Source: a virus. Taken from it: a stretch of DNA of 40,104 nt. The notes below the pieces were generated by a model. That model saw nothing but the letters and a program-made list of their open reading frames with translations. It was not told where the DNA came from and did no database searches. Below are positions 8,463-35,389 of this stretch, one piece after another (position 1 is the first letter of the stretch; the number at the start of each line of letters is the position of its first letter). Location of the stretch: the IMG/VR virus record IMGVR_UViG_3300033148_006741, positions 1 through 40,104 of that record; one strand, written 5' to 3'. Both the position numbers and the translations under genes were made by a program.

Positions 8463-8750
8463 ATGAATAAGGCAAAAAAAAGATACTACGCAAGAATAGA
8501 CTGGTTTGTCACGGCACAAAATCCAGGGCAGGGATTTGCTAATAGCAAGAGGATCATTAGTTTTTCAAGTTTTAACGAAAGAAATAAATATCTTTTAGAA
8601 AGATCCGACTATGATTTTTCTTGTGTTGAGATCACATATAGAGAAGCGGTTAAAGAGCGTTACACAGATTACGACCCATTTGTGTTGGGGTGTTACACGA
8701 AGGGAGAAGCTGAATTTAAGCCTTTTGGTCGTCAATCTGCGAGACAATAA
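8463..8750 (+). CDS. Small early protein, unknown
   Basis: 95 residues, basic N-terminus (MNKAKKRYYARIDWFVTAQ), soluble, aromatic-rich, no cysteine pairs of zinc type. It is first in the plus-strand early operon, preceded by the cassette AACATGGAGAGAAGATT that recurs before two further genes here. The five-codon ORF in that cassette ends in a TGA overlapping this ATG. Early location suggests a host-takeover role, but nothing in the sequence names one. Confidence 0.55.
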   Translation: MNKAKKRYYARIDWFVTAQNPGQGFANSKRIISFSSFNERNKYLLERSDYDFSCVEITYREAVKERYTDYDPFVLGCYTKGEAEFKPFGRQSARQ

Positions 8751-8772
8751 ACAAAAACATGGAGAGAAGAGT

Positions 8773-9252
8773 ATGAACTATTTTGTAGGATGCCAGACAC
8801 AGGATGAATTTAAGCAGAGGTATAAAGAGTTAGCCAAGAAAAACCATCCCGACTTGGGCGGTTGTAGTGAAGATATGAAAGCTATAAATGAGGAATATGA
8901 GAAAGGTTTCCGTGAGAATTACAAGAAGTCCGGTACAGAATACGAGGGTATGGATGTAGAGGATTTGTTGAAGGAAGACAGAGAGCTACGCGAGAAGCTT
9001 TATGCAATCTTGGGCATCGAGGGCATTGAAATAGAATTGTGCGGGACATGGCTATGGCTAACAGGGAACACGAGAGAGGTACGAGATGTTTTAAAGCGGA
9101 ATGATTTCAAGTGGGCAAGGAAAAAGAGTGCTTGGTATTTCCACACAGGAGCTTACAGCAAGCGAGGCAAGAAGCGTTTTACTCTGGATGAGATAAGGGT
9201 TATGCACGGAAGTGCAAACATCAAGACCAATACACGGAAAGTGTTAGCTTAA
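8773..9252 (+). CDS. J-domain (DnaJ-like) early protein
   Basis: 159 residues from the ATG at 8773, chosen because the repeated ribosome cassette GGAGAGAAGA lies just before it. Residues 11-43 form a short J-domain with the HPD signature at 25-27 (KELAKKNHPDLGG) and the following helix EDMKAINEEYE. The second half (about 75-150) holds ELCGTWLWLTGNTREVRDVL and WARKKSAWYF, an accessory domain regularly joined to this J-domain in phage and plasmid proteins. J-domains stimulate the ATPase of DnaK, so it probably redirects the host chaperone. A near-copy of the J-domain lies in the 1202-residue virion protein. Confidence 0.8.
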   Translation: MNYFVGCQTQDEFKQRYKELAKKNHPDLGGCSEDMKAINEEYEKGFRENYKKSGTEYEGMDVEDLLKEDRELREKLYAILGIEGIEIELCGTWLWLTGNTREVRDVLKRNDFKWARKKSAWYFHTGAYSKRGKKRFTLDEIRVMHGSANIKTNTRKVLA

Positions 9253-15484: not shown

Positions 15485-15793
15485 TCAGTTCTTGACTATT
15501 TCTATCACAACAGGATATAGAGCTTCCACTTGCCTTTTCTTTATTTTGAACACAGGTGTTTCGACACCTTTTGTGTCCACGTATCTTATGCTATTATCAT
15601 TGTTAACTATCATGAAATCACAACGATATGTGACCTTCCCTGGAAGTCGGAATGGAATTTGCATGAGGAAGTATTTTATTTCTCCAGCTTTTTGGAGAAG
15701 TTTCAGTTTTGAGTAGTATCTTGCCTCAAGTTTGCTTGGAAATCTGATATCATCAACGATAGTGGGTTGGGCATAGTACTTCTGTTTCTTCAT
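15485..15793 (-). CDS. DUF1064-type phage nuclease (Holliday-junction resolvase-like)
   Basis: 102 residues from the ATG at 15791-15793 (GGGAG 6 bases upstream); the longer frame adds six unsupported residues. The start KYYAQPTIVDDIRFPSKLEARYYSKLKLLQKAGEI, then LMQIPFRLPGKVTYRCDFMI and VDTKGVETPVFKIKKR, show the PD-(D/E)XK layout of DUF1064: E (KLEA), D (CDFMI) and a DTKG lysine. Such proteins sit in phage replication clusters and probably cut branched DNA before packaging. Last gene of the replication operon. Confidence 0.8.
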   Translation of the reverse strand: MKKQKYYAQPTIVDDIRFPSKLEARYYSKLKLLQKAGEIKYFLMQIPFRLPGKVTYRCDFMIVNNDNSIRYVDTKGVETPVFKIKKRQVEALYPVVIEIVKN

Positions 15794-15845
15794 ATAAGGC
15801 TCCCTGTTCAACTTTCTTTTTTACGTGAACAATCCTGTATCTTCG

Positions 15846-15897: not shown

Positions 15898-16713
15898 TTA
15901 ACTCCTTGTTGATCTTAGGTCTTCACCTTCCATCTCTATATATTCACCACTAAACAATCGACTCACTATCGCCTTCCCAAATTTGTCCTCTAACTCATTG
16001 ACATCCATATTCGTTGTTACAACGGTTCCCTTTCGGTCAGAATAGCGACTATTGACCACAAGATAGATGAAATCACAGAATGCTTCGGATGGTGTACGCG
16101 TACCAAGATCATCAAGAACAAGCAAGGGAGTTCTCGTGAGCTTATACATCAATTTGAGTGGAGACTTAACATTAGAAAGCCACTCTTGGTATAGGCTACT
16201 CACATTGTAAAAAAGTGGATATTCTCCATTACGTTCAAAGTATTCTCTGATGATTGCCGAAGCGGAATAAGACTTTCCAATTCCATTTTTGCCAATGAAA
16301 ACGTAGAACTCTTTCGGATTCCTTGAATAGCTTATCAGCTCAGACTTAAGGCTCTCTGAATGCAACCAACTATCAAATGAAGCTGACAAGAGACGTTCAG
16401 GCACACCAATCTTCGTTAGACATTCCTCAATATTGGCTTTTGGTGGAGTGTACTCGACTCTTTTGGCATTCTTTTGGATGCATTCATTCCTACGGCATGC
16501 CCACCAATATCCGCCTGGATCATTGACTTTGTATCCTTCATCGAAGCCACACATGGGACAAGTTATACCTTTTGAGAACCTTGGTGTGCAGAACACCGGT
16601 ACACCATTGTCCATGATTGCACAAATTATCGTACCTTCGGTTAGCTCGGGAAGTTGATCTTTCGACATGAAGTCGCCATAATTCGCATGTAATATCTCTT
16701 GGAGTGTTTTCAT
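15898..16713 (-). CDS. DnaC-like helicase loader (AAA+ ATPase)
   Basis: 271 residues. The N-terminal part has four cysteines (C52, C55, C73, C78) forming a probable zinc finger. Then Walker A GKNGIGKSYS (141-150), Walker B LLVLDDLG (197-204), sensor-like VVTTNMDVNELEDKFG and an arginine in AIVSRL follow in the order of DnaC/IstB-type loaders. It would load the host replicative helicase at the phage origin together with the initiator gene next to it. ATG shares ATGA with that gene's stop. No phage helicase is seen, fitting use of the host's. Confidence 0.88.
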   Translation of the reverse strand: MKTLQEILHANYGDFMSKDQLPELTEGTIICAIMDNGVPVFCTPRFSKGITCPMCGFDEGYKVNDPGGYWWACRRNECIQKNAKRVEYTPPKANIEECLTKIGVPERLLSASFDSWLHSESLKSELISYSRNPKEFYVFIGKNGIGKSYSASAIIREYFERNGEYPLFYNVSSLYQEWLSNVKSPLKLMYKLTRTPLLVLDDLGTRTPSEAFCDFIYLVVNSRYSDRKGTVVTTNMDVNELEDKFGKAIVSRLFSGEYIEMEGEDLRSTRS

Positions 16714-17555
16714 GACATTCTCCTAGGTTTTAAATGTCCGTATTCGTAGTTTTTCGGACATTTATCACTCACAACCTTTTTACCTTGAGCGTATTTTGCA
16801 TATTCTGATGACCTTGAGAACCAATCCAGTACAAACTTCCATGTCCCTTTGCGCCTCTTGCCCTTTGGGTTTTCCTCAAGCCACAGCTTGATTTTCACCA
16901 GTTCCGCCTCGATGTCGGTACAAGGGTATGCTCTCCTGAGCTTGGACATTCTTTCCTCGTTGAGGTTTTCGAATTCACTTGTTGTACGATTAAAAAAGAC
17001 AGAATTTGTGTCGTCACGTTCACATTTTTTATGTGGATGTGAAGATATACCGTCAGGTATATCTATCTTTGTTTTAGTATCTGTTTTAGTATCTGGTATA
17101 GGAGGGCCACTTCCTTCCATTCCATTGGACACTTTCATCCTCTCCATTGGACAACCTTGACCATTCGAGTGGTCAGATGTGTCCATTGGTTCAGATGTGG
17201 CCTCGAACAACATTTTGTCCTCTTGTATTCCAATGAGGAATTTATGTTCATCATTGAAAGCATACCAAGTCGTTCTATCATAGGAGGATTTGTTGAAATT
17301 GCCCGTTTTTATCACTTTTTTGTCTATAAGACTTCGTATGAGACGCTCTATCTTTTTCCTATTCTTCCAATAAGGAAAATGCGCGATGATCCATTTTTGT
17401 GTTTGATATGTCCATGTAGCACCTTCATGTTTGTTCGTTCCCATTCTCTTGTTAATCATTATCCAATGCTGAAAATGATGTATGAGAATTGCTTCTTCAA
17501 TGCCATATTCTTCGGCAATTGCGATGTCAAAACTATGATGTAGTGATGAATTCAT
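16710..17555 (-). CDS. Replication initiator, lambda O-like
   Basis: 281 residues. The N-terminal domain (about 1-115: SFDIAIAEEYGIEEAILIHH, WTYQTQKWIIAHFPYWKNRK, IERLIRSLIDKKVIKTGNFN, DRTTWYAF) is the winged helix common to phage O/DnaD-like initiators. A low-complexity Ser/Thr/Asp linker (about 120-185) precedes a C-terminal part (KLRRAYPC, WLEENPKGKRRKGTWKFVLDWFSR) that normally touches the helicase loader. Directly upstream lies a region with four TGCAT repeats, a plausible binding site. AGGAAA ribosome site. Confidence 0.8.
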   Translation of the reverse strand: MNSSLHHSFDIAIAEEYGIEEAILIHHFQHWIMINKRMGTNKHEGATWTYQTQKWIIAHFPYWKNRKKIERLIRSLIDKKVIKTGNFNKSSYDRTTWYAFNDEHKFLIGIQEDKMLFEATSEPMDTSDHSNGQGCPMERMKVSNGMEGSGPPIPDTKTDTKTKIDIPDGISSHPHKKCERDDTNSVFFNRTTSEFENLNEERMSKLRRAYPCTDIEAELVKIKLWLEENPKGKRRKGTWKFVLDWFSRSSEYAKYAQGKKVVSDKCPKNYEYGHLKPRRMS

Positions 17556-17865: not shown

Positions 17866-18228
17866 TTAGAACGGGAGTCCGTCATCTGAATCATCGAATG
17901 ATGATTGAACGGGTGGAGGAGTGGCATCGGGCTGTGGCCCTGCCGGTGCGTTGAAGTGTTTGTTGAATGCTTCGGTCATTCCTGCATGGAATTCCGCATA
18001 GCCATCTTTAGAGAAGAAACCGCAAACGGCACTATATTTCTTTTCGCCAGCTTGATTCGTATACTCACGTGATGGCAAAGCATAGAAATTACCACCTTTC
18101 GGTGATTCGATGATCTTCACACCGTTTATAGTTAGAGGAAAACCATCTACGGTTATCTCTATGTTAGCGAATCCTTTAATCTTAGATTCGTTCATGTTCT
18201 TCTTATAATCCGCGATCTTTATTTTCAT
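17866..18228 (-). CDS. SpoVG-domain protein with SSB-like C-terminal tail
   Basis: 120 residues. Residues about 1-90 follow the SpoVG pattern: start KIKIADYKKN, GFANIEITVDGFPLTINGVKII, then GGNFYALPSREYTNQAGEKKYS. The C-terminus is a Pro/Gln/Ala-rich linker ending SSFDDSDDGLPF, like the DDDIPF tip by which bacterial SSB recruits repair and replication partners. SpoVG-family proteins bind nucleic acid; with the tail and its place before the replication genes, this may be the phage's single-strand binding protein. The tail and domain are seen; the function is inferred. Confidence 0.7.
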   Translation of the reverse strand: MKIKIADYKKNMNESKIKGFANIEITVDGFPLTINGVKIIESPKGGNFYALPSREYTNQAGEKKYSAVCGFFSKDGYAEFHAGMTEAFNKHFNAPAGPQPDATPPPVQSSFDDSDDGLPF

Positions 18229-18434
18229 CTGTATTCCTCTGGTTCTTCGTGAAATAGAGCTTCCTCTTTGGTAATTTTCCCACCTGTGACTTCTTCGATA
18301 ATGTGCGCTAGTCTCTTGCTGGGGGAGCCTTTCCTTAACATCAACATGCGAAGATGTGTCACGGTGATACCCAACTTATCGGCAAAAGCCCTTTGGGTTA
18401 TCTTATATTTTCTCATAAATTCTTTTAGGTGCAT
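18225..18434 (-). CDS. Cro/CI-type helix-turn-helix regulator
   Basis: 69 residues from the ATG at 18432-18434, preceded by AGGAGG; upstream codons of the frame are promoter. KITQRAFADKLGITVTHLRMLM (about 10-31) is a clear helix-turn-helix, followed by RLAHIIEEVTGGKITKEEALF typical of YdaS/Cro-like repressors. It lacks a CI-like protease/dimer domain. It lies in a divergent switch facing the recombination operon and probably represses one or both promoters. Coupled by ATGA to the SpoVG-type gene. Confidence 0.8.
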   Translation of the reverse strand: MHLKEFMRKYKITQRAFADKLGITVTHLRMLMLRKGSPSKRLAHIIEEVTGGKITKEEALFHEEPEEYR

Positions 18435-18669
18435 AGAACCTCCTGTGTAATTTTTATTATGATAAGGGATATTTGCATATTTTGTCAAGGTTTAGAAGGA
18501 GATGTGCAGATTTTACTTTTACTTTTTGAGATAATGTGATATGATGAGAGAAAACTTGAGACAATAAAAAACCCCAACCGGACTACTGATAACTGACACA
18601 TGACGTCAGCCTTCATCCTTATGGGGTAAAAAACGCGAACAGTGACATTGTGTCACAAGGAGAAAAAAC
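18435..18669. promoter_or_regulatory. Divergent switch between repressor and recombination operons
   Basis: Leftward: TTGACA and TATCAT 18 bases apart (plus positions 18483-18488, 18459-18464), near consensus. Rightward: TTTACT (18518-18523) and TATGAT (18540-18545), spacing 16. The rightward leader contains ACCCCA/TGGGGT arms (about 18574 and 18621) enclosing CTGAC-7-GTCAG, then the perfect palindrome GTGACA-TTG-TGTCAC (18642-18656) just before the ribosome site. On the minus strand the ACCCCA/TGGGGT stem is followed by TTTTTT, so it may also terminate antisense RNA. Confidence 0.65.
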
Positions 18670-19275
18670 ATGGAAGAGAAAGTTATAGAAATCGCACCAG
18701 AAAGCATATACGTATCGTTGTGTAAGCTTCAGGGCTCTTTGACTACTGTCGAAAAAAAGCGAAAAGGGTATAATTTCACTTATGCTGATCTGTCAGATAT
18801 TTGGGATATGATCCGAAAACCATTAGCTGAAAATGGCTTTGCCTTGATACAACTTGTGGAAAGTGAAGAGGGGCGAAATTACATAATCACTCAACTACAT
18901 CATACATCGGGACAAATGATACAATCTAAGACTCTCATTGAGTTTACTGCAAAGAAGTTTCAGGAAGTGGGTACAGCTATCACCTATTATCGTCGGTATG
19001 CATTGAGCGCAATGTTGGGGATTGTATCGGATGAAGATGTTGACGACAAAAAAGAAGAAAATGATAAGTTATATTCCAAGTCTAAAGAGCTACAACTATC
19101 TGAAAAACAAATAAAGACCATTGAAGGTTTGATAAATGGACACGAAGACATTCGCGATAAGATAAAAGCTGCTTATTATTTCCTCAAAAACATCCCTGTT
19201 GCAGAATACGAGAAGGTGGTTAAGACAATAAAGCAACTGATCAAAGACAAGGAGAAGAAAAATGAAAATAGTTGA
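18670..19275 (+). CDS. Erf-family single-strand annealing recombinase
   Basis: 201 residues. The core (about 12-125) includes GYNFTYADLSDIWDMIRKPLAENGF, and the family signature GTAITYYRRYALSAMLGIVS (101-120) with DEDVDD after it. The C-terminal third is a lysine-rich helical region (LSEKQIKTIEGLI...), often the partner-binding part. It anneals complementary single strands, pairing with the YqaJ exonuclease encoded next to it, in a Red-like system for circularisation or concatemer formation. AAGGAG ribosome site; 14-base overlap with the next gene. Confidence 0.92.
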   Translation: MEEKVIEIAPESIYVSLCKLQGSLTTVEKKRKGYNFTYADLSDIWDMIRKPLAENGFALIQLVESEEGRNYIITQLHHTSGQMIQSKTLIEFTAKKFQEVGTAITYYRRYALSAMLGIVSDEDVDDKKEENDKLYSKSKELQLSEKQIKTIEGLINGHEDIRDKIKAAYYFLKNIPVAEYEKVVKTIKQLIKDKEKKNENS

Positions 19276-20161
19276 CGTTGAACAGAGATCCGATGAATGG
19301 TATGCGTTTCGCAAAGAAGGTATTGGCGCATCAGAAGCCTCTGCAGTTTTGGGAACATCAAGATATAAAACCCCAAAAGACATATGGGAAATAAAGACGG
19401 AAAGAGCATTCCCTGATTTTACCAATGTGGATATGCAAAGAGGAATTGATTTAGAACCATCTGCTAGGGCAGCATTCGAAATGATAATAGGAAAGTCGTT
19501 TCCATCACTATGCGGAATACATGATGAACTTCCGTACATAAGAGCTTCCTTTGATGGGGTAAGCAAGGACTTCAAGGAGATAGCCGAATTTAAGTGTCCA
19601 AGGACTATGAAGCTTTTTAAAATCCTGAAAGAAGAGAACTTGCCTCTTTTCATGGAGGAATATCCCGAGTACTATGCTCAAATCATGCACCAGTTTGCGG
19701 TATGCGATACCGCAGATACTGCATACATTGTTTCATATATCAACGGAGAGATCGCATATATGCGATTGTCAAGAGATGCGCACTTCATTGAGACTCTTCT
19801 TATTCCTGAGATAACCTCTTTCTGGAAGGAGTTTGTATTGAAAGATGTTGAACCACCCCTCTCCGGTAAAGACTGCCTGTACATCGATGATCCGGAAGCC
19901 ATTAAAGAGGCTGAAGAGTTGGTTGCCTTAAGTGAGACAATAAAGAATCTTCTGGAAAAAGAGAAATCCCTCAAGAAGCGCATTGCTGATAGGAGTGATG
20001 ATGGAAACTTTCAGGTGGGACCAATCCTCAGAGTAACACGAGTCAATAAAAAAGGAAACGTTGACACAAAGAAGCTTTATGAGGCTTATGCAATTACCGA
20101 AAATGATCTCAAAAAGTTCAGGAAATCAGGAATAGGATTTTGGCAATATAGAGCTTTGTGA
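19262..20161 (+). CDS. YqaJ-family (lambda Exo-like) exonuclease
   Basis: 299 residues. RSDEWYAFRKEGIGASEASAVLG at the start, MQRGIDLEPSARAAFE (E65), then ASFDGV (D98) and EFKCP (E109, K111) give the YqaJ PD-(D/E)XK catalytic set; EEYPEYYAQIMHQFAV is the conserved helix with QxxxQ-like residues. The C-terminus has a coiled coil and a beta-hairpin. It degrades one strand from double-strand ends, feeding the Erf annealase made from the same message. Ribosome site AAGGAGAAG. Confidence 0.93.
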   Translation: MKIVDVEQRSDEWYAFRKEGIGASEASAVLGTSRYKTPKDIWEIKTERAFPDFTNVDMQRGIDLEPSARAAFEMIIGKSFPSLCGIHDELPYIRASFDGVSKDFKEIAEFKCPRTMKLFKILKEENLPLFMEEYPEYYAQIMHQFAVCDTADTAYIVSYINGEIAYMRLSRDAHFIETLLIPEITSFWKEFVLKDVEPPLSGKDCLYIDDPEAIKEAEELVALSETIKNLLEKEKSLKKRIADRSDDGNFQVGPILRVTRVNKKGNVDTKKLYEAYAITENDLKKFRKSGIGFWQYRAL

Positions 20162-21374: not shown

Positions 21375-22139
21375 CTATGTTGTAATAAAAGTAATAGGTT
21401 TATCGAAACTGAATCCAGTAATTGTTTTTCCACTGAAAGTTAGATCAGATGCTATTTCCCCATATGTTCCAGCCCAAGCAAGACATGAAGATGGCACACT
21501 GAGTAGACCATCAACAATTAGTCCTCTATTCCAAAAATACCTTGCCGACGGAAATTCTAATGCGGATGTATTTTTTACAGCGATCACTAGCCACACTGGG
21601 CCTGCGCTATATGATACGGATGACGAATATGTTTTTAATCCAGTTGTAGATGCATCAAGTTCGCCAGACTCGAAAAGTCTCGTGCCAAAATCACCCGAAC
21701 TGTCTGTGAAAATTGCAAACCGGAATTTTTGACTTGCTGAAGCTGTTGAGACATATAATGCTGTTGTAGCAGCAGTTACATCCGCTCGAACATATATTGG
21801 AAAAACATAAAAAAGATTAGTTACTGCTAAACTTTCATCTGCATCAATGTTCTCTCCCATTAAAGATAATGTATGGTATTCGGTTGCAGCAAGAAAATCA
21901 TCGTTAAAACCTGTTCCTAATTCATTTCCACCCCCTGAGGGTGATTGAAAGGTTGGCAATACTCCTGCTCCATTGGATGTGAGGGCTTGACCAGCCGAGC
22001 CAACCCCTGCAATAGGCTGAATATCGCTGGTTGAAGCAGTTCCTCCACAGAGAACGGAGTATGCCGTATGTGAAGCAGCTCCCGTGCCTCCTTTAGCAAC
22101 CTGAATAGGCATGTCCGTGTTTACACTGTTCTGTGACAT
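21375..22139 (-). CDS. Tail fibre / receptor-binding paralogue 3 of 3
   Basis: 254 residues. The first about 66 residues (MSQNSVNTDMPIQVAKGGTG...LTSNGAGVLPTFQ) are almost identical to those of the next two genes and to a repeat type found in many fibres. The C-terminal part alternates conserved segments (YVRADVTAATTALYV, FRFAIFTDSSGDFGTRLFES, TYSSSVSYSAGPVWLVIAVKN, WAGTYGEIASDLTFSGK) with variable ones. Probably a fibre tip or adhesin. TAGGAGT ribosome site shared by all three copies. Confidence 0.7.
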   Translation of the reverse strand: MSQNSVNTDMPIQVAKGGTGAASHTAYSVLCGGTASTSDIQPIAGVGSAGQALTSNGAGVLPTFQSPSGGGNELGTGFNDDFLAATEYHTLSLMGENIDADESLAVTNLFYVFPIYVRADVTAATTALYVSTASASQKFRFAIFTDSSGDFGTRLFESGELDASTTGLKTYSSSVSYSAGPVWLVIAVKNTSALEFPSARYFWNRGLIVDGLLSVPSSCLAWAGTYGEIASDLTFSGKTITGFSFDKPITFITT

Positions 22140-22147
22140 AATTACTC

Positions 22148-22921
22148 CTAACTTATTGTAATATATAAAAAAGCTGGATCTTCTAAACTCGCAGTCAAGC
22201 TTTTTCCACTGAAAGTTAAATCAGACGCTATTTCCCCATATGTTCCTGTCCAGTGAAGAAAACCAACATTATCTGCACTTATAGGATTTGCAATCCAACC
22301 CGCATTTACTGTTTGGTCACATTCACGCAAGCCGAAATCATTAGCATTTTTTACAGCGATCACTAGCCACGCTGGGCCTGCGCTATATGATACGGATGAC
22401 GAATATATTTTTGCTCCAGAAAAAGTCGCATCAATCTCACCAGACTCGAACAATCTCGTTCCAAAATCCCCTGCATCATCAGTGAATATCGCAAACCGGA
22501 ATTCTTGGTCACTACCAGGATCACCAAGATACAATGCTGTTGTAGCAGCGGTTACGTCCGCTCGAATAATTACAGGATGAGCATAAAAGGCATCTGCAAC
22601 ACCTCCCAAATCTGATATTGCTGTAGTGTCGTTTAAATTAACAAAGACACAATGATAATGAGAGGATTGCAAATAATCATTGTTGTAGTCAACCGTAAGA
22701 TCAGCACCACCTCCCCCTGATTGATTCTGAAAGGTTGGCAATACTCCTGCTCCATTGGATGTGAGGGCTTGACCAGCCGAGCCAACCCCTGCAATAGGCT
22801 GAATATCGCTGGTTGAAGTAGTTCCTCCACAGAGAACGGAGTATGCCGTATGTGAGGCAGCTCCCGTGCCTCCTTTAGCAACCTGAATAGGCATGTCCGT
22901 GTTTACACTGTTCTGTGACAT
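22148..22921 (-). CDS. Tail fibre / receptor-binding paralogue 2 of 3
   Basis: 257 residues with the same N-terminal module and interleaved C-terminal frame as its neighbours. Here the variable parts read SSHYHCVFVNLNDTTAISDLGGVADAF and DFGLRECDQTVNAGWIANPI. It is separated from its neighbours by only 8 bases, an unmistakable tandem duplication. Different copies may bind different receptors, or form hetero-trimers; neither is shown by sequence. Confidence 0.7.
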   Translation of the reverse strand: MSQNSVNTDMPIQVAKGGTGAASHTAYSVLCGGTTSTSDIQPIAGVGSAGQALTSNGAGVLPTFQNQSGGGGADLTVDYNNDYLQSSHYHCVFVNLNDTTAISDLGGVADAFYAHPVIIRADVTAATTALYLGDPGSDQEFRFAIFTDDAGDFGTRLFESGEIDATFSGAKIYSSSVSYSAGPAWLVIAVKNANDFGLRECDQTVNAGWIANPISADNVGFLHWTGTYGEIASDLTFSGKSLTASLEDPAFLYITIS

Positions 22922-22929
22922 AATTACTC

Positions 22930-23700
22930 CTAACTTATTGTAATAAACATTGATGTTAGACTTTTTGTGCTACTTGTTATTGTTTTTCCACTGAAAGTTA
23001 AATCAGACGCTATTTCCCCATATGTTCCAGCCCAAGCATGTCCGTTATAAATTACTGAACCGCTTGCATTGCAATGTTTTGCTGTATTAATAGTGTAAGT
23101 ACAGGCTTCAACATCCAAATCGGTTGTGTTTTTAGCAACGATCACTAGCCACGCTGGGCCTGCGCTATATGATACGGATGACGAATATGTTTTTAATCCG
23201 TTTGTAGATGCATCAAGTTCGCCAGACTCGAAAAGTCTCGTGCCAAAATCACCCGAACTGTCTGTGAAAATTGCAAACCGGAATTTTTGACTTGCTGAAG
23301 AATCTGTAACATATAATGCTGTTGTAGCAGCAGTTACATCCGCTCGAATAACAAAAGATTGAGCAAAAAATTCATCAGCGACATCTCGACCTGAAGGGAT
23401 GTCGGTTATACGATCATTTAGTGATAAAAGATGGTAATGTGATGATGGGAGTTGATCATTATTAAATCCTACACTATAGCTTGGACTGCTCCCCCCTGAT
23501 TGATTCTGAAAGGTTGGCAGTGTGGCAGCCCCATTAGAGATTAAAGCTTGACCAGCCGAGCCAACCCCTGCAATAGGCTGAATATCGCTGGTTGAAGTAG
23601 TTCCTCCACAGAGAACGGAGTATGCCGTATGTGAAGCAGCTCCCGTGCCTCCTTTAGCAACCTGAATAGGCATGTCCGTGTTTACACTGTTCTGTGACAT
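22930..23700 (-). CDS. Tail fibre / receptor-binding paralogue 1 of 3
   Basis: 256 residues. N-terminal module as in the other copies but with small changes (ALISNGAATLPTFQ), conserved core, and variable parts SSHYHLLSLNDRITDIPSGRDVADEF and LDVEACTYTINTAKHCNASGS. In places its DNA is identical to paralogue 3 over tens of bases and in others to paralogue 2, a mosaic suggesting gene conversion among copies. Confidence 0.7.
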   Translation of the reverse strand: MSQNSVNTDMPIQVAKGGTGAASHTAYSVLCGGTTSTSDIQPIAGVGSAGQALISNGAATLPTFQNQSGGSSPSYSVGFNNDQLPSSHYHLLSLNDRITDIPSGRDVADEFFAQSFVIRADVTAATTALYVTDSSASQKFRFAIFTDSSGDFGTRLFESGELDASTNGLKTYSSSVSYSAGPAWLVIVAKNTTDLDVEACTYTINTAKHCNASGSVIYNGHAWAGTYGEIASDLTFSGKTITSSTKSLTSMFITIS

Positions 23701-31772: not shown

Positions 31773-31792
31773 GCGAAGATTTATTTCTTCGC
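31773..31792. other. Hairpin at the end of the ejection protein gene
   Basis: GCGAAGA-6-TCTTCGC, perfect, spans the stop codon of the 1202-residue gene. It lacks a U-run, so it may protect the 3' end or mark a processing site rather than terminate. Confidence 0.4.
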
Positions 31793-34700
31793 CACCTTCT
31801 TGTTGCCAACTATGAACTTTTTCATAGTCGTTATTGTTCTTTTGATGGATGACATCTTGTAACCATTGTCTTTGAGAACTCTCACAATCTTATTGAGTTT
31901 TCCCATATCTCCTTTTCTCAGTGCGTCGTAAATATATGGTTCAGCTTTCCTTAATGACATACCTTTTCCAACGGGTATTCCTCCCAATCCTGATGCAGCC
32001 CATACCGCAAGACCTTCTATGAAATTACCATCTTTCCCAATAGTGCGAACTCCAAATGGAATAAACTCTCCAACAAGTTCTTTAGTTCTGGATGCACCTC
32101 TTCCAATCGTATGTTGCATTGTTCCTGACCAAGGACGCATTGCTCCATTAACATATTCACCCTGAACTGGAAAAGCACTTCCCTGATATGGAGAGGCACC
32201 AAACATCTGTTTTAATCCAGTTTGAACAACAGGACTTCCTTTTGAGAAAAGAGCATCTAAGGGATCTGTAACATAACGAGGAATCTCAAGAGCTTGCTTT
32301 CCAAAGTGGGCATGTCGTTTCCTTCCCCTCTCGTCTCGACCCGGATTGAATTCCACCTTTCCAACTTTCAGGTTAACATCAGGTAATGGAAATGAAAACC
32401 ATTTTGAAGGATCGTCTTCATCCCAAACTCTCATTGCTTTCTTAGCATTCCAACGTATCTTATTAGATTCATCTTTCTTAGATTCAAAACCTGACATAAC
32501 CAATCTCATAAGAGCTGTAATCAAAAGCATTCCCATTACATAACGAATCCAATATGCTCGTGCCATGTCTCCCTTAACACCTTTTCCAAAGAAACCGGCT
32601 GCCTGTTTAATAGCAGAAACCGACCAGTCAGGATACCCAACGGCTCGTTGTACCCATTTACGAATATTAGGATCATTGAAAACACGGGAGAGCTCTTTGA
32701 TCTGACCACCAAATTGGTTATTAACAAGTTCACCACTTTCTCGTTTAATCTGTATCATCAATTCAGGGGTTATCTTATGTCCTTTCTCAAGGTGACGGAC
32801 AATAGCTTCTTCAACATACGTCTGCCAAGTGAAGATTTTTAGACGAGGCTGGTATTCATCAAATAAAAACTTGTCTGCCTTGATTATATTGTCGTAAACA
32901 GGTTGAAGATTCTTACCAAACATCTTTTTAGGTAACTTATCAAGTGCTCTTGTGAAAAAACCTTCTACTTGACGAATTTGTTCTTGATCTGGTATGCGCC
33001 CAATCTCAATATACTTTGAGGCTTCCATCATAAATTCTTTGTCAGCACGTAATCGAGTTCCTTCATCCCACCAGTTCTTTGGAAAGAGATTCTTCATTCC
33101 GGGAAGTGCTTTGAAAAGATCAAATCCCAATCCACCTATTCCCGCTTCTGCTAATGCGTAATAATGAAAAGGCGACAATTTGACACGACTTGTTTTTAAA
33201 ATATTATTGAGAGTATCATAATATTTCCAAAATGGATATTCTGGCTTGAAAGCATCTTTTCTAAACATACCCTTCATTGCAGGAGCAAGGTCAGGATTCA
33301 TCAATGCTGGTTGTGCATGGACTGCCCGAATGGTTTCACCCTCTTTTGTTTTCCCTGCGTTATAACTTCTTAGAAAAACATCATGGAAAGGAATCCATCC
33401 TCCTCGTTTGGCTTGTGCGTAAAGTTTCCCATCACTAAGAGTAATGATTAATTTGCGACCTGTCTCAGCCTCTAGCTTTCTGATAGAATCAAGCAACTCA
33501 TTGTTAGCCTCAAGGCGCAACATGATCTCATCATACGCCTGCATTAAATGACTAGGATCTTTATACCTTGGTTTCAACCCAGCCTTTACGAAAGCTTCAT
33601 TGTAATCGAGGAATGTCTTCTGTTTCGATAATGGGTTCTTTGTCTTAAATTGTTTCGAGACAATATTTAATATTGGGCCATAACCCCCTTTCGGTTCTTC
33701 GTAGATCCCTGGAAGATATACCTCCTGAACTCCTTCTCCTGGGTTAATATTCCTTGTAACAATATTATCATTCCATCTCTTAAGCCACGCATCAGTGTGT
33801 CGTGCCATCTCTTCTGCAACATCTTTCCCCTCTTCAGGTAGACGTTTAGAAAGAGCTTCAAAACTATCACCTTTAACATTCGGATTTTCAGTATTTTGAC
33901 GATAATAAATGATTTCTTCTCGTTCTTTCGGAGTGAAATTTCTGCCAAGTTCCTTTTCAGCTTCAAGCATAACATCTCGCCACTTGAATTGAGACTCGAC
34001 ACGACCAGCTCTTGTCTTCTCTACATGATTTCGCAGAATGTCGAAATATTTTTCCTCTCGTACCTTTTTATCTTTATAAGCAAGAGCTTTTCGAGCCAAT
34101 TTTCTAATTGGTTCAGGGAAGTCCTCAATAGCATCTCGCAGTGCTTGATCTGGTGATTCAGACTCTTTGGGTTTAACTTCTGGTTCTGCTGGTTCTTTTC
34201 GTGGTTCTTCTTTCTTCTTAGGTTCTTCTTTTCGTGGTTCTTCTTTTCGTGGTTCTTTCTCAGTCGGTGCAGGAGACTTCTTACCCACTGACCTCTCTTT
34301 CTCAAACGGTTTTCTAGTCTTTACCTTTGGTTGTGCCTGAGTGGTCTGTTCCAAAATGGAAACAACCTCTGCCTTTGGACTTGGCTTTGTCTCAGGCTTT
34401 GTCTCAGCTTCATCAACCTTCTTCTCTTGTTTCACAAGTTCTTTTTTCTGCTTAACTAATTTCTTTTTGTCCTCTGCAATTTCTTTTGCTTGGTCTTCAT
34501 TTATTGCATTAAACATTCGGATGAATCCAGTATCGGGATTAGTAGAATTGATTTCTTCGTCTACCGTCTTTTTTCTTTGTCGAAGTACTTTCTCTTCTTC
34601 TGTTATTCTCTTCTCAAATTTGTCAATCTCCGATTTCTGCTTATTGAGAGCATTCCTTTCTTCTCCAAATGCAATAATTTCAGCTTCTTCTATAGTCTTT

Positions 34701-35389
34701 GCTTTGCGGATTTTATCAATCCTCTTGTCTGTCTCCGATACAAATTCTTCCTTTGGCTTAGGTCGAGTCTCAGGCTTTGTCTCGGGCTTTGTCTCAGGCT
34801 TTTGCTCAGGCTTTTGCTCAGGCTTTTGCTCAGGCTTTGGTTTCGTTTTTTCAGCTTCCTCAAACCCTTCTTGCCCTTCTCCAAAAAAGTAGTTAAGTGT
34901 GTCTCGTATGTAATCAAATCGTCCAGGCTTTTGATGTCCTCTACTATACTCTTCATTGATAGCCTTCATTATCTCTGTATCGCCACCAATATCAGGATGA
35001 TTCTTTTTAACCAAATCCTTGAATCTTTGCTTAAACTCAGCCTTGGTTTTAGTCCCTTTGAAATGCTTTACAACTTCAGGACTAGGAGGTTTGCTTCCTC
35101 CTGTTTGAGCCTTCTGTGCTTTAAGTTCTGCCTGTATCTTGTTGTAGACTCCTGATGTAAGATGGAATCCAAATGTTAACGCAATATTATCACCAATCTC
35201 TCTTACCGAAGGTATTCTCATATCCAAAATTGCTTGAGATCCTGTAATTGCTGTAAGAGTCGCTATTGGTTTTTCTAATAACTTTCCAACCTTTGAATTT
35301 AAGAGTGGCCTAAATCCTGGTAAAGTTCTCATCACAGGTAATAACTTCGATGCCTGGGACGTAGCAGCACCCACGATGGCTGATTTCAC
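31781..35389 (-). CDS. Large ejection (internal virion) protein with J-domain, main part
   Basis: 1202 residues from a GTG at 35387-35389 that has no good ribosome site and lies directly after an in-frame TGA. Residues about 110-150 are a J-domain (KDLVKKNHPDIGG, HPD at 131-133) very close to that of the early protein at 8773. Then KPEQ/KPET repeats (about 188-215), long charged coiled coils (to about 420) and a C-terminal half (about 480-1200) rich in aromatic and basic residues with one hydrophobic segment (YVMGMLLITALMRLVM). Position after the portal and Q-rich protein fits an ejected virion protein. See the adjoining 180-residue gene. Confidence 0.6.
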   Translation of the reverse strand: MKSAIVGAATSQASKLLPVMRTLPGFRPLLNSKVGKLLEKPIATLTAITGSQAILDMRIPSVREIGDNIALTFGFHLTSGVYNKIQAELKAQKAQTGGSKPPSPEVVKHFKGTKTKAEFKQRFKDLVKKNHPDIGGDTEIMKAINEEYSRGHQKPGRFDYIRDTLNYFFGEGQEGFEEAEKTKPKPEQKPEQKPEQKPETKPETKPETRPKPKEEFVSETDKRIDKIRKAKTIEEAEIIAFGEERNALNKQKSEIDKFEKRITEEEKVLRQRKKTVDEEINSTNPDTGFIRMFNAINEDQAKEIAEDKKKLVKQKKELVKQEKKVDEAETKPETKPSPKAEVVSILEQTTQAQPKVKTRKPFEKERSVGKKSPAPTEKEPRKEEPRKEEPKKKEEPRKEPAEPEVKPKESESPDQALRDAIEDFPEPIRKLARKALAYKDKKVREEKYFDILRNHVEKTRAGRVESQFKWRDVMLEAEKELGRNFTPKEREEIIYYRQNTENPNVKGDSFEALSKRLPEEGKDVAEEMARHTDAWLKRWNDNIVTRNINPGEGVQEVYLPGIYEEPKGGYGPILNIVSKQFKTKNPLSKQKTFLDYNEAFVKAGLKPRYKDPSHLMQAYDEIMLRLEANNELLDSIRKLEAETGRKLIITLSDGKLYAQAKRGGWIPFHDVFLRSYNAGKTKEGETIRAVHAQPALMNPDLAPAMKGMFRKDAFKPEYPFWKYYDTLNNILKTSRVKLSPFHYYALAEAGIGGLGFDLFKALPGMKNLFPKNWWDEGTRLRADKEFMMEASKYIEIGRIPDQEQIRQVEGFFTRALDKLPKKMFGKNLQPVYDNIIKADKFLFDEYQPRLKIFTWQTYVEEAIVRHLEKGHKITPELMIQIKRESGELVNNQFGGQIKELSRVFNDPNIRKWVQRAVGYPDWSVSAIKQAAGFFGKGVKGDMARAYWIRYVMGMLLITALMRLVMSGFESKKDESNKIRWNAKKAMRVWDEDDPSKWFSFPLPDVNLKVGKVEFNPGRDERGRKRHAHFGKQALEIPRYVTDPLDALFSKGSPVVQTGLKQMFGASPYQGSAFPVQGEYVNGAMRPWSGTMQHTIGRGASRTKELVGEFIPFGVRTIGKDGNFIEGLAVWAASGLGGIPVGKGMSLRKAEPYIYDALRKGDMGKLNKIVRVLKDNGYKMSSIKRTITTMKKFIVGNKKVAKK

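Follow-up and report, generated by a model that had tools for sequence, protein, structure and literature searches.

A SpoVG-fold protein with an SSB-type acidic tip: a candidate single-strand binding protein in Chlamydiota-linked phages

Almost all single-strand DNA-binding proteins (SSBs) share one fold. Non-OB SSBs on record are adenovirus DBP, ThermoDBP, and N4-type Drc (PMC8276246), and the winged-helix Sul7s are another non-OB ssDNA binder (PMC8998557). The tip of Escherichia coli SSB, DDDIPF, docks more than 14 partner proteins (PMC5872125). SpoVG proteins, in turn, bind nucleic acids. In B. burgdorferi and S. aureus, DNA binding depends on two basic residues (R53/R54 and K50/R51, respectively; PMC3688583), and Listeria SpoVG binds ssDNA nonspecifically, with an apparent Kd of 1.2 uM and no significant binding to dsDNA, while cellular SpoVG prefers RNA, with roughly tenfold better binding than to ssDNA (PMC4959528). 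Phage spoVG genes are already known (PMC3362512; PMC10294663); Clostridium phage phiCP7R, for one, encodes a putative SpoVG whose role is given as unknown (PMC3362512). None of the papers that we found links SpoVG to an SSB tip or an SSB role; priority is nevertheless unproven, because our literature search covered subscription journals thinly.

The window analyzed here is a whole viral record of 40,104 bases. It encodes a small protein that we regard, with moderate confidence, as a phage ssDNA-binding protein built on the SpoVG fold, with an SSB-type tip that would recruit host proteins.

The gene product and its predicted fold

The gene occupies positions 17866 to 18228 of the minus strand, stop codon included, and the plus strand of this interval is full of stops. 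The 120-amino-acid product (MKIKIADYKK...SSFDDSDDGLPF) divides into three parts. Residues 1 to 93 (17950 to 18228, minus strand) form the predicted SpoVG-fold core, with six strands and a C-terminal helix at residues 74 to 93; the core contains the family motif P52-S-R-E-Y...G61-E-K-K-Y65. A flexible linker rich in Pro, Ala, and Ser follows (residues 94 to 111; 17896 to 17949, minus strand), recognized from its sequence and from a drop in pLDDT, which is down to 62-63 from residue 101 onward. The last nine residues, DDSDDGLPF (112 to 120; 17869 to 17895, minus strand), make up an SSB-type acidic tip, conserved in the family as [DE]..xPF.

The SpoVG likeness that an earlier note had read in the N-terminal part is borne out: PF04026 is the best Pfam match (E 7.1e-6), and structure prediction backs it. 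At 26.5 bits, the match falls just under the curated Pfam cut-off of 29.6; the predicted structure makes the protein a divergent SpoVG-fold relative, and its score leaves it outside Pfam SpoVG membership. The same Pfam family is the commonest match among the relatives described below (found in 23 of 32 at E values no higher than 1, the lowest being 7.1e-6). The window protein matches the family profile at E 1.6e-25; PHROGs holds no good family for it. Because a PDB sequence search from the window protein reaches SpoVG weakly (E 0.08), the fold claim rests on models. The AlphaFold2 model, which draws on 32 family sequences and reaches a mean pLDDT of 85, has SpoVG entry 2i9z as its top Foldseek match in the PDB (probability 1.00), and its Z scores (VIA) to SpoVG entries are 9.2 (2ia9), 8.7 (2i9z), and 8.4 (2i9x), the next row being at 6.0. 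The model of a relative with 27% identity to the window protein (L080, alignment A10; pLDDT 77) gives the same picture, with Foldseek places 1 to 6 all taken by SpoVG and Z scores to SpoVG entries of 9.9, 9.2, and 9.1, followed by 5.2. The remaining fold-search rows, at Z 6 or below, carry unrelated titles and were disregarded. Against viral predicted structures, Foldseek ranks the phiCP7R putative SpoVG first (I3PV27, E 3e-4).

By alignment, the DNA-contacting pair of SpoVG falls on the PSRE motif of the family. The first basic position is R54 in the window protein and Q in some relatives, and the second is E55.

The tip and the distribution of the family

We identified about 30 relatives in uncultured phage genomes of about 36 to 42 kb each. 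A tip can be an artifact if loci are chosen by their tails, and one pattern scan did require the tail; it gave 69 loci, a single one of which is a true relative (L055), and three other in-frame PF ORFs from that pattern are unrelated to the family. We reject the artifact, as three tail-blind routes also give the tip. The searches that ignored the tail used a PSREY...KKY motif, relatives of alignment A4, a W-I..P..KKY pattern filtered by profile, Erf-motif sampling of phages, and a profile search of Chlamydiota genomes. A PF end is present in 35 of the 40 tail-blind members and in 1 of 576 non-family ORFs near family genes, and none of these 576 ends in an acidic PF. The SSB-type tip that the earlier note had pointed out thus recurs beyond chance, and the search that it had proposed, for SpoVG plus an acidic LPF tail in phages, proved positive. 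By subset, 29 of 32 sequences in alignment A7 end in PF (27 of 30 when the window and L055 are left aside), as do both members sampled through the Erf motif (EDDLPF and EECPF) and 6 of 8 Chlamydiota members from the profile search. The exact PF end is missing from the first copy in L076, from L116 and L130 (all in A7), and from two Chlamydiota loci. None of 5 canonical SpoVG proteins from phage records and 6 canonical-like Chlamydiota SpoVG proteins has a PF end, and the linker is missing from them as well. A split in charge is general in the family: the core carries a net charge between 0 and +5 in all but one of 32 members, the exception being at -1, and the last 25 residues are net negative in 31 of 32.

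The profile search found family genes in 8 of 232 Chlamydiota genomes and in 0 of 288 Verrucomicrobiota genomes; a Spartobacteria match (L171) is a chance match within a P-type ATPase gene. One Chlamydiota MAG contig of 36,464 bases (JAAKFB010000001.1; L170/L294) carries the family gene together with P22-type structural and recombination genes, and the SSB of that MAG ends in ADEEIPF. P22-type portal and terminase, YqaJ, and RecT-like phage genes were seen at L170/L294 and at L298 to L303. These loci probably belong to tailed Chlamydiota phages or prophages. To our knowledge, the isolated phages of Chlamydiota are microviruses. From family membership, we infer that the window phage, which encodes a P22-like portal, may infect Chlamydiota, with the qualification that phage contigs are possibly misbinned.

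Other searches located no relatives, and the family is missing from the collections of cultured phages and of plasmids. tblastn of 50,697 phage records with the window protein, four relatives, a tandem paralogue, and the family consensus gave one fragmentary, chance-level match (E 0.06), and a search of 72,556 plasmid records with the consensus came up empty. Viral contigs scanned with the window protein alone, or with its DnaC alone, gave no match, and a first genome-contig scan with alignment A5 gave no relative; the six-sequence alignment A2 was too diverse as a scan query. In a gut phage record (MT838484.1; L003:912-1385), a second SpoVG-domain protein has a long acidic tail but no tip; it matches the family profile at E 1.3e-6.

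Gene neighborhood, OB-fold SSB absence, and alternative roles

The earlier note had placed the gene ahead of the replication genes, and this placement holds. Downstream on the same (minus) strand are a phage replication initiator, DnaD-like (16710 to 17555; PHROG 11233, E 1.7e-25; PHROG 6493), a DnaC-like helicase loader (15898 to 16713; PHROG 50, E 1.2e-33; Pfam IstB), and a Holliday-junction resolvase (15485 to 15811; DUF1064/PHROG 190). Directly upstream, also on the minus strand, is a Cro/CI-like HTH regulator (18225 to 18434), with its ATG at 18434 behind AGGAGG and an ATGA overlap between its stop and the start codon of the SpoVG-fold gene. Before it lies a sigma-70-like promoter, TTGACA-18-TATCAT (18459 to 18488, minus strand), read directly by its resemblance to the consensus. 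Upstream and divergent are genes on the plus strand for an Erf-like ssDNA annealing protein (18670 to 19275; Pfam ERF, E 5e-19; PHROG 2324) and a YqaJ/RecE-like exonuclease (19262 to 20161; Pfam YqaJ, E 6e-23; PHROG 434). Elsewhere in the window, positions 21375 to 23700 encode three near-identical tandem proteins of about 255 amino acids (MSQNSVNTDMPIQVAKGGTGAASHTAYSVLCGGT...), probably tail-fibre-like, and AKGGTG repeats of a similar kind are present in larger structural ORFs, both of the window and of relatives. A J-domain-like segment is common to 8611 to 9252 (plus strand) and part of 31781 to 35389 (minus strand) (FKQRYKELAKKNHPDLGG / FKQRFKDLVKKNHPDIGG); one of the two sits in a 1,202-amino-acid late protein, and Pfam DnaJ matches one ORF (E 6e-4).

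In the relatives, too, the family gene usually lies among replication and recombination genes. DnaC-like loaders and RusA resolvases are commonest (9 each) in the 119 ORFs around it, followed by DnaD/O-like initiators (7 to 8) and then recombinases. Individual loci, with genes named by eye from sequence, also place the family gene together with a DnaB-type helicase in L156, a primase in L298, and a PolA-type polymerase in L302; Erf lies within a few genes in L164 and, accompanied by YqaJ, in L158, as does a RecT-like gene in L294. Several loci, L055/L146 and L155 among them, have no initiator or loader directly next to the family gene. Some loci have tandem copies, one tip-bearing and one tip-less (L147, 2065-2699), and in L298:1501-2298 and L299:1501-2319 the tip-bearing copy precedes the tip-less paralogue. 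This pairing suggests a division of labor or a hetero-oligomer.

The earlier note had also reported no OB-fold SSB in the genome; PF00436 indeed has no match in the 40,104-base record, and the Pfam matches of its 57 ORFs include no SSB family of any kind, PF10991 included. Across genomes, PF00436 is found in 0 of 27 family-bearing records (25 plus two sampled through Erf) versus 7 of 23 Erf phages that lack the family (Fisher p 0.0025; six of the seven matches exceed the curated cut-off). The genomes are related to each other, relatedness is uncorrected, and some records are fragments, so this comparison supports replacement of the OB-fold SSB but is short of proof. A missing OB-fold SSB is weak evidence alone, because 16 of the 23 Erf phages without the family share it. 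The profile of Enc34-type SSBs (PF10991) matches 0 of 50 records, control genomes being likewise without a match. The family apparently fills the SSB slot of the genome.

The main rival to an SSB is an adaptor that mimics the SSB tip, recruiting host SSB partners or competing for them without coating ssDNA, while its SpoVG core takes another ligand (origin dsDNA, RNA, or the phage initiator). We consider it unlikely. The tip is more conserved across the family than the basic residues of the core, RNA and specific dsDNA are further ligands of SpoVG proteins (PMC4959528, PMC3688583), and family genes lie beside initiators and helicase loaders. Against this, dsDNA, unlike ssDNA, is not a ligand of the Listeria SpoVG core, ssDNA-recombination genes are also among the neighbors, and the split between basic core and acidic tail, together with the missing OB-fold SSB, fits an SSB. 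RNA could nonetheless be the ligand of the family, given the tenfold preference of cellular SpoVG.

A recombination mediator is an improbable alternative. Such a protein would work mainly with the Erf/RecT annealase and the exonuclease, to promote loading or annealing much as the SSB of phage HK620 stimulates Sak4, with replication secondary. A phage SSB has been published to stimulate its cognate annealase (PMC5928155), and Erf and YqaJ are divergent next door in the window, with Erf near the family gene in two other loci and a RecT-like gene in a third. Most loci, however, have an initiator, helicase loader, helicase, primase, or polymerase nearest and no Erf beside the family gene.

Very improbable is an expression regulator of the SpoVG type captured by phages with an incidental PF end: global regulation is a known role of SpoVG proteins, the spoVG genes of gut phages have been interpreted as sporulation or post-transcriptional regulators (PMC10294663), and an HTH regulator gene overlaps the window gene, but most members keep the PF tip, which is all but missing from other ORFs nearby, SpoVG proteins of phage records and Chlamydiota outside it have no PF tip, and the genomic place of the gene argues otherwise.

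A candidate SSB compared with known proteins

The simplest account, on our analysis, is that the core acts on ssDNA and the tip engages the replication and repair proteins of the host. In this account, ssDNA arising from phage replication and from Erf/exonuclease recombination would be the ligand of the SpoVG core, which is weakly basic. The disordered acidic tail, with its DDGLPF end, would dock in the SSB-tip pockets of host proteins, for which primase, PriA, Pol III chi, RecO, and exonuclease I are candidates, and would thereby bring host machinery to phage DNA, as host SSB does; docking is proposed because of the known role of the SSB tip. The earlier note saw here a SpoVG fold recruited as a phage SSB. 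Sequence, predicted fold, tip, context, and the absence of an OB-fold SSB uphold the candidate, whereas "SSB" proper is too strong, because ssDNA binding and partner recruitment, like the replication role of the family, rest on inference.

More broadly, the SpoVG fold may form a separate class of SSB in Chlamydiota-linked phages, one in which the OB-fold SSB was replaced, a bacterial tip was acquired or arose by convergence, and some genes were duplicated into tip-bearing and tip-less copies; to this larger proposal we give about even credence. If it is true, the SSB tip is a portable module for different ssDNA-binding folds, the long-puzzling SpoVG proteins gain a plain biochemical theme in single-strand binding, and some "sporulation" spoVG genes of phages may be replication genes. 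For Chlamydiota-linked tailed phages, the family also offers a marker and a replication protein open to testing.

Compared with bacterial SSB (PF00436; E. coli SSB-Ct DDDIPF), the family has the same arrangement of basic core, flexible linker, and acidic tip ending in a hydrophobic residue, Pro, and Phe, but its fold is that of SpoVG and not the OB fold, its length is about 105 to 120 amino acids, and it has no sequence match to PF00436. With SpoVG (PF04026; B. subtilis 2IA9, S. epidermidis 2I9Z, and Listeria Lmo0196) it shares the predicted fold over about 85 to 90 residues and the PS[KR]...GE motif region, at low identity to the solved structures (8 to 21% in structural alignments), and it differs in its replication context, linker, and SSB tip. 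The phiCP7R protein and the window protein are both phage SpoVG-fold proteins, likened by predicted fold; the Clostridium perfringens podoviruses with SpoVG are protein-primed, phi29-like phages, unlike the window family. Adenovirus DBP, ThermoDBP, N4-type Drc, and Sul7s likewise place an ssDNA-binding role on a non-OB fold, but their folds are unrelated to this one. The family probably represents a novel type of SSB, unrelated to known ones and covered by none of the described phage families.
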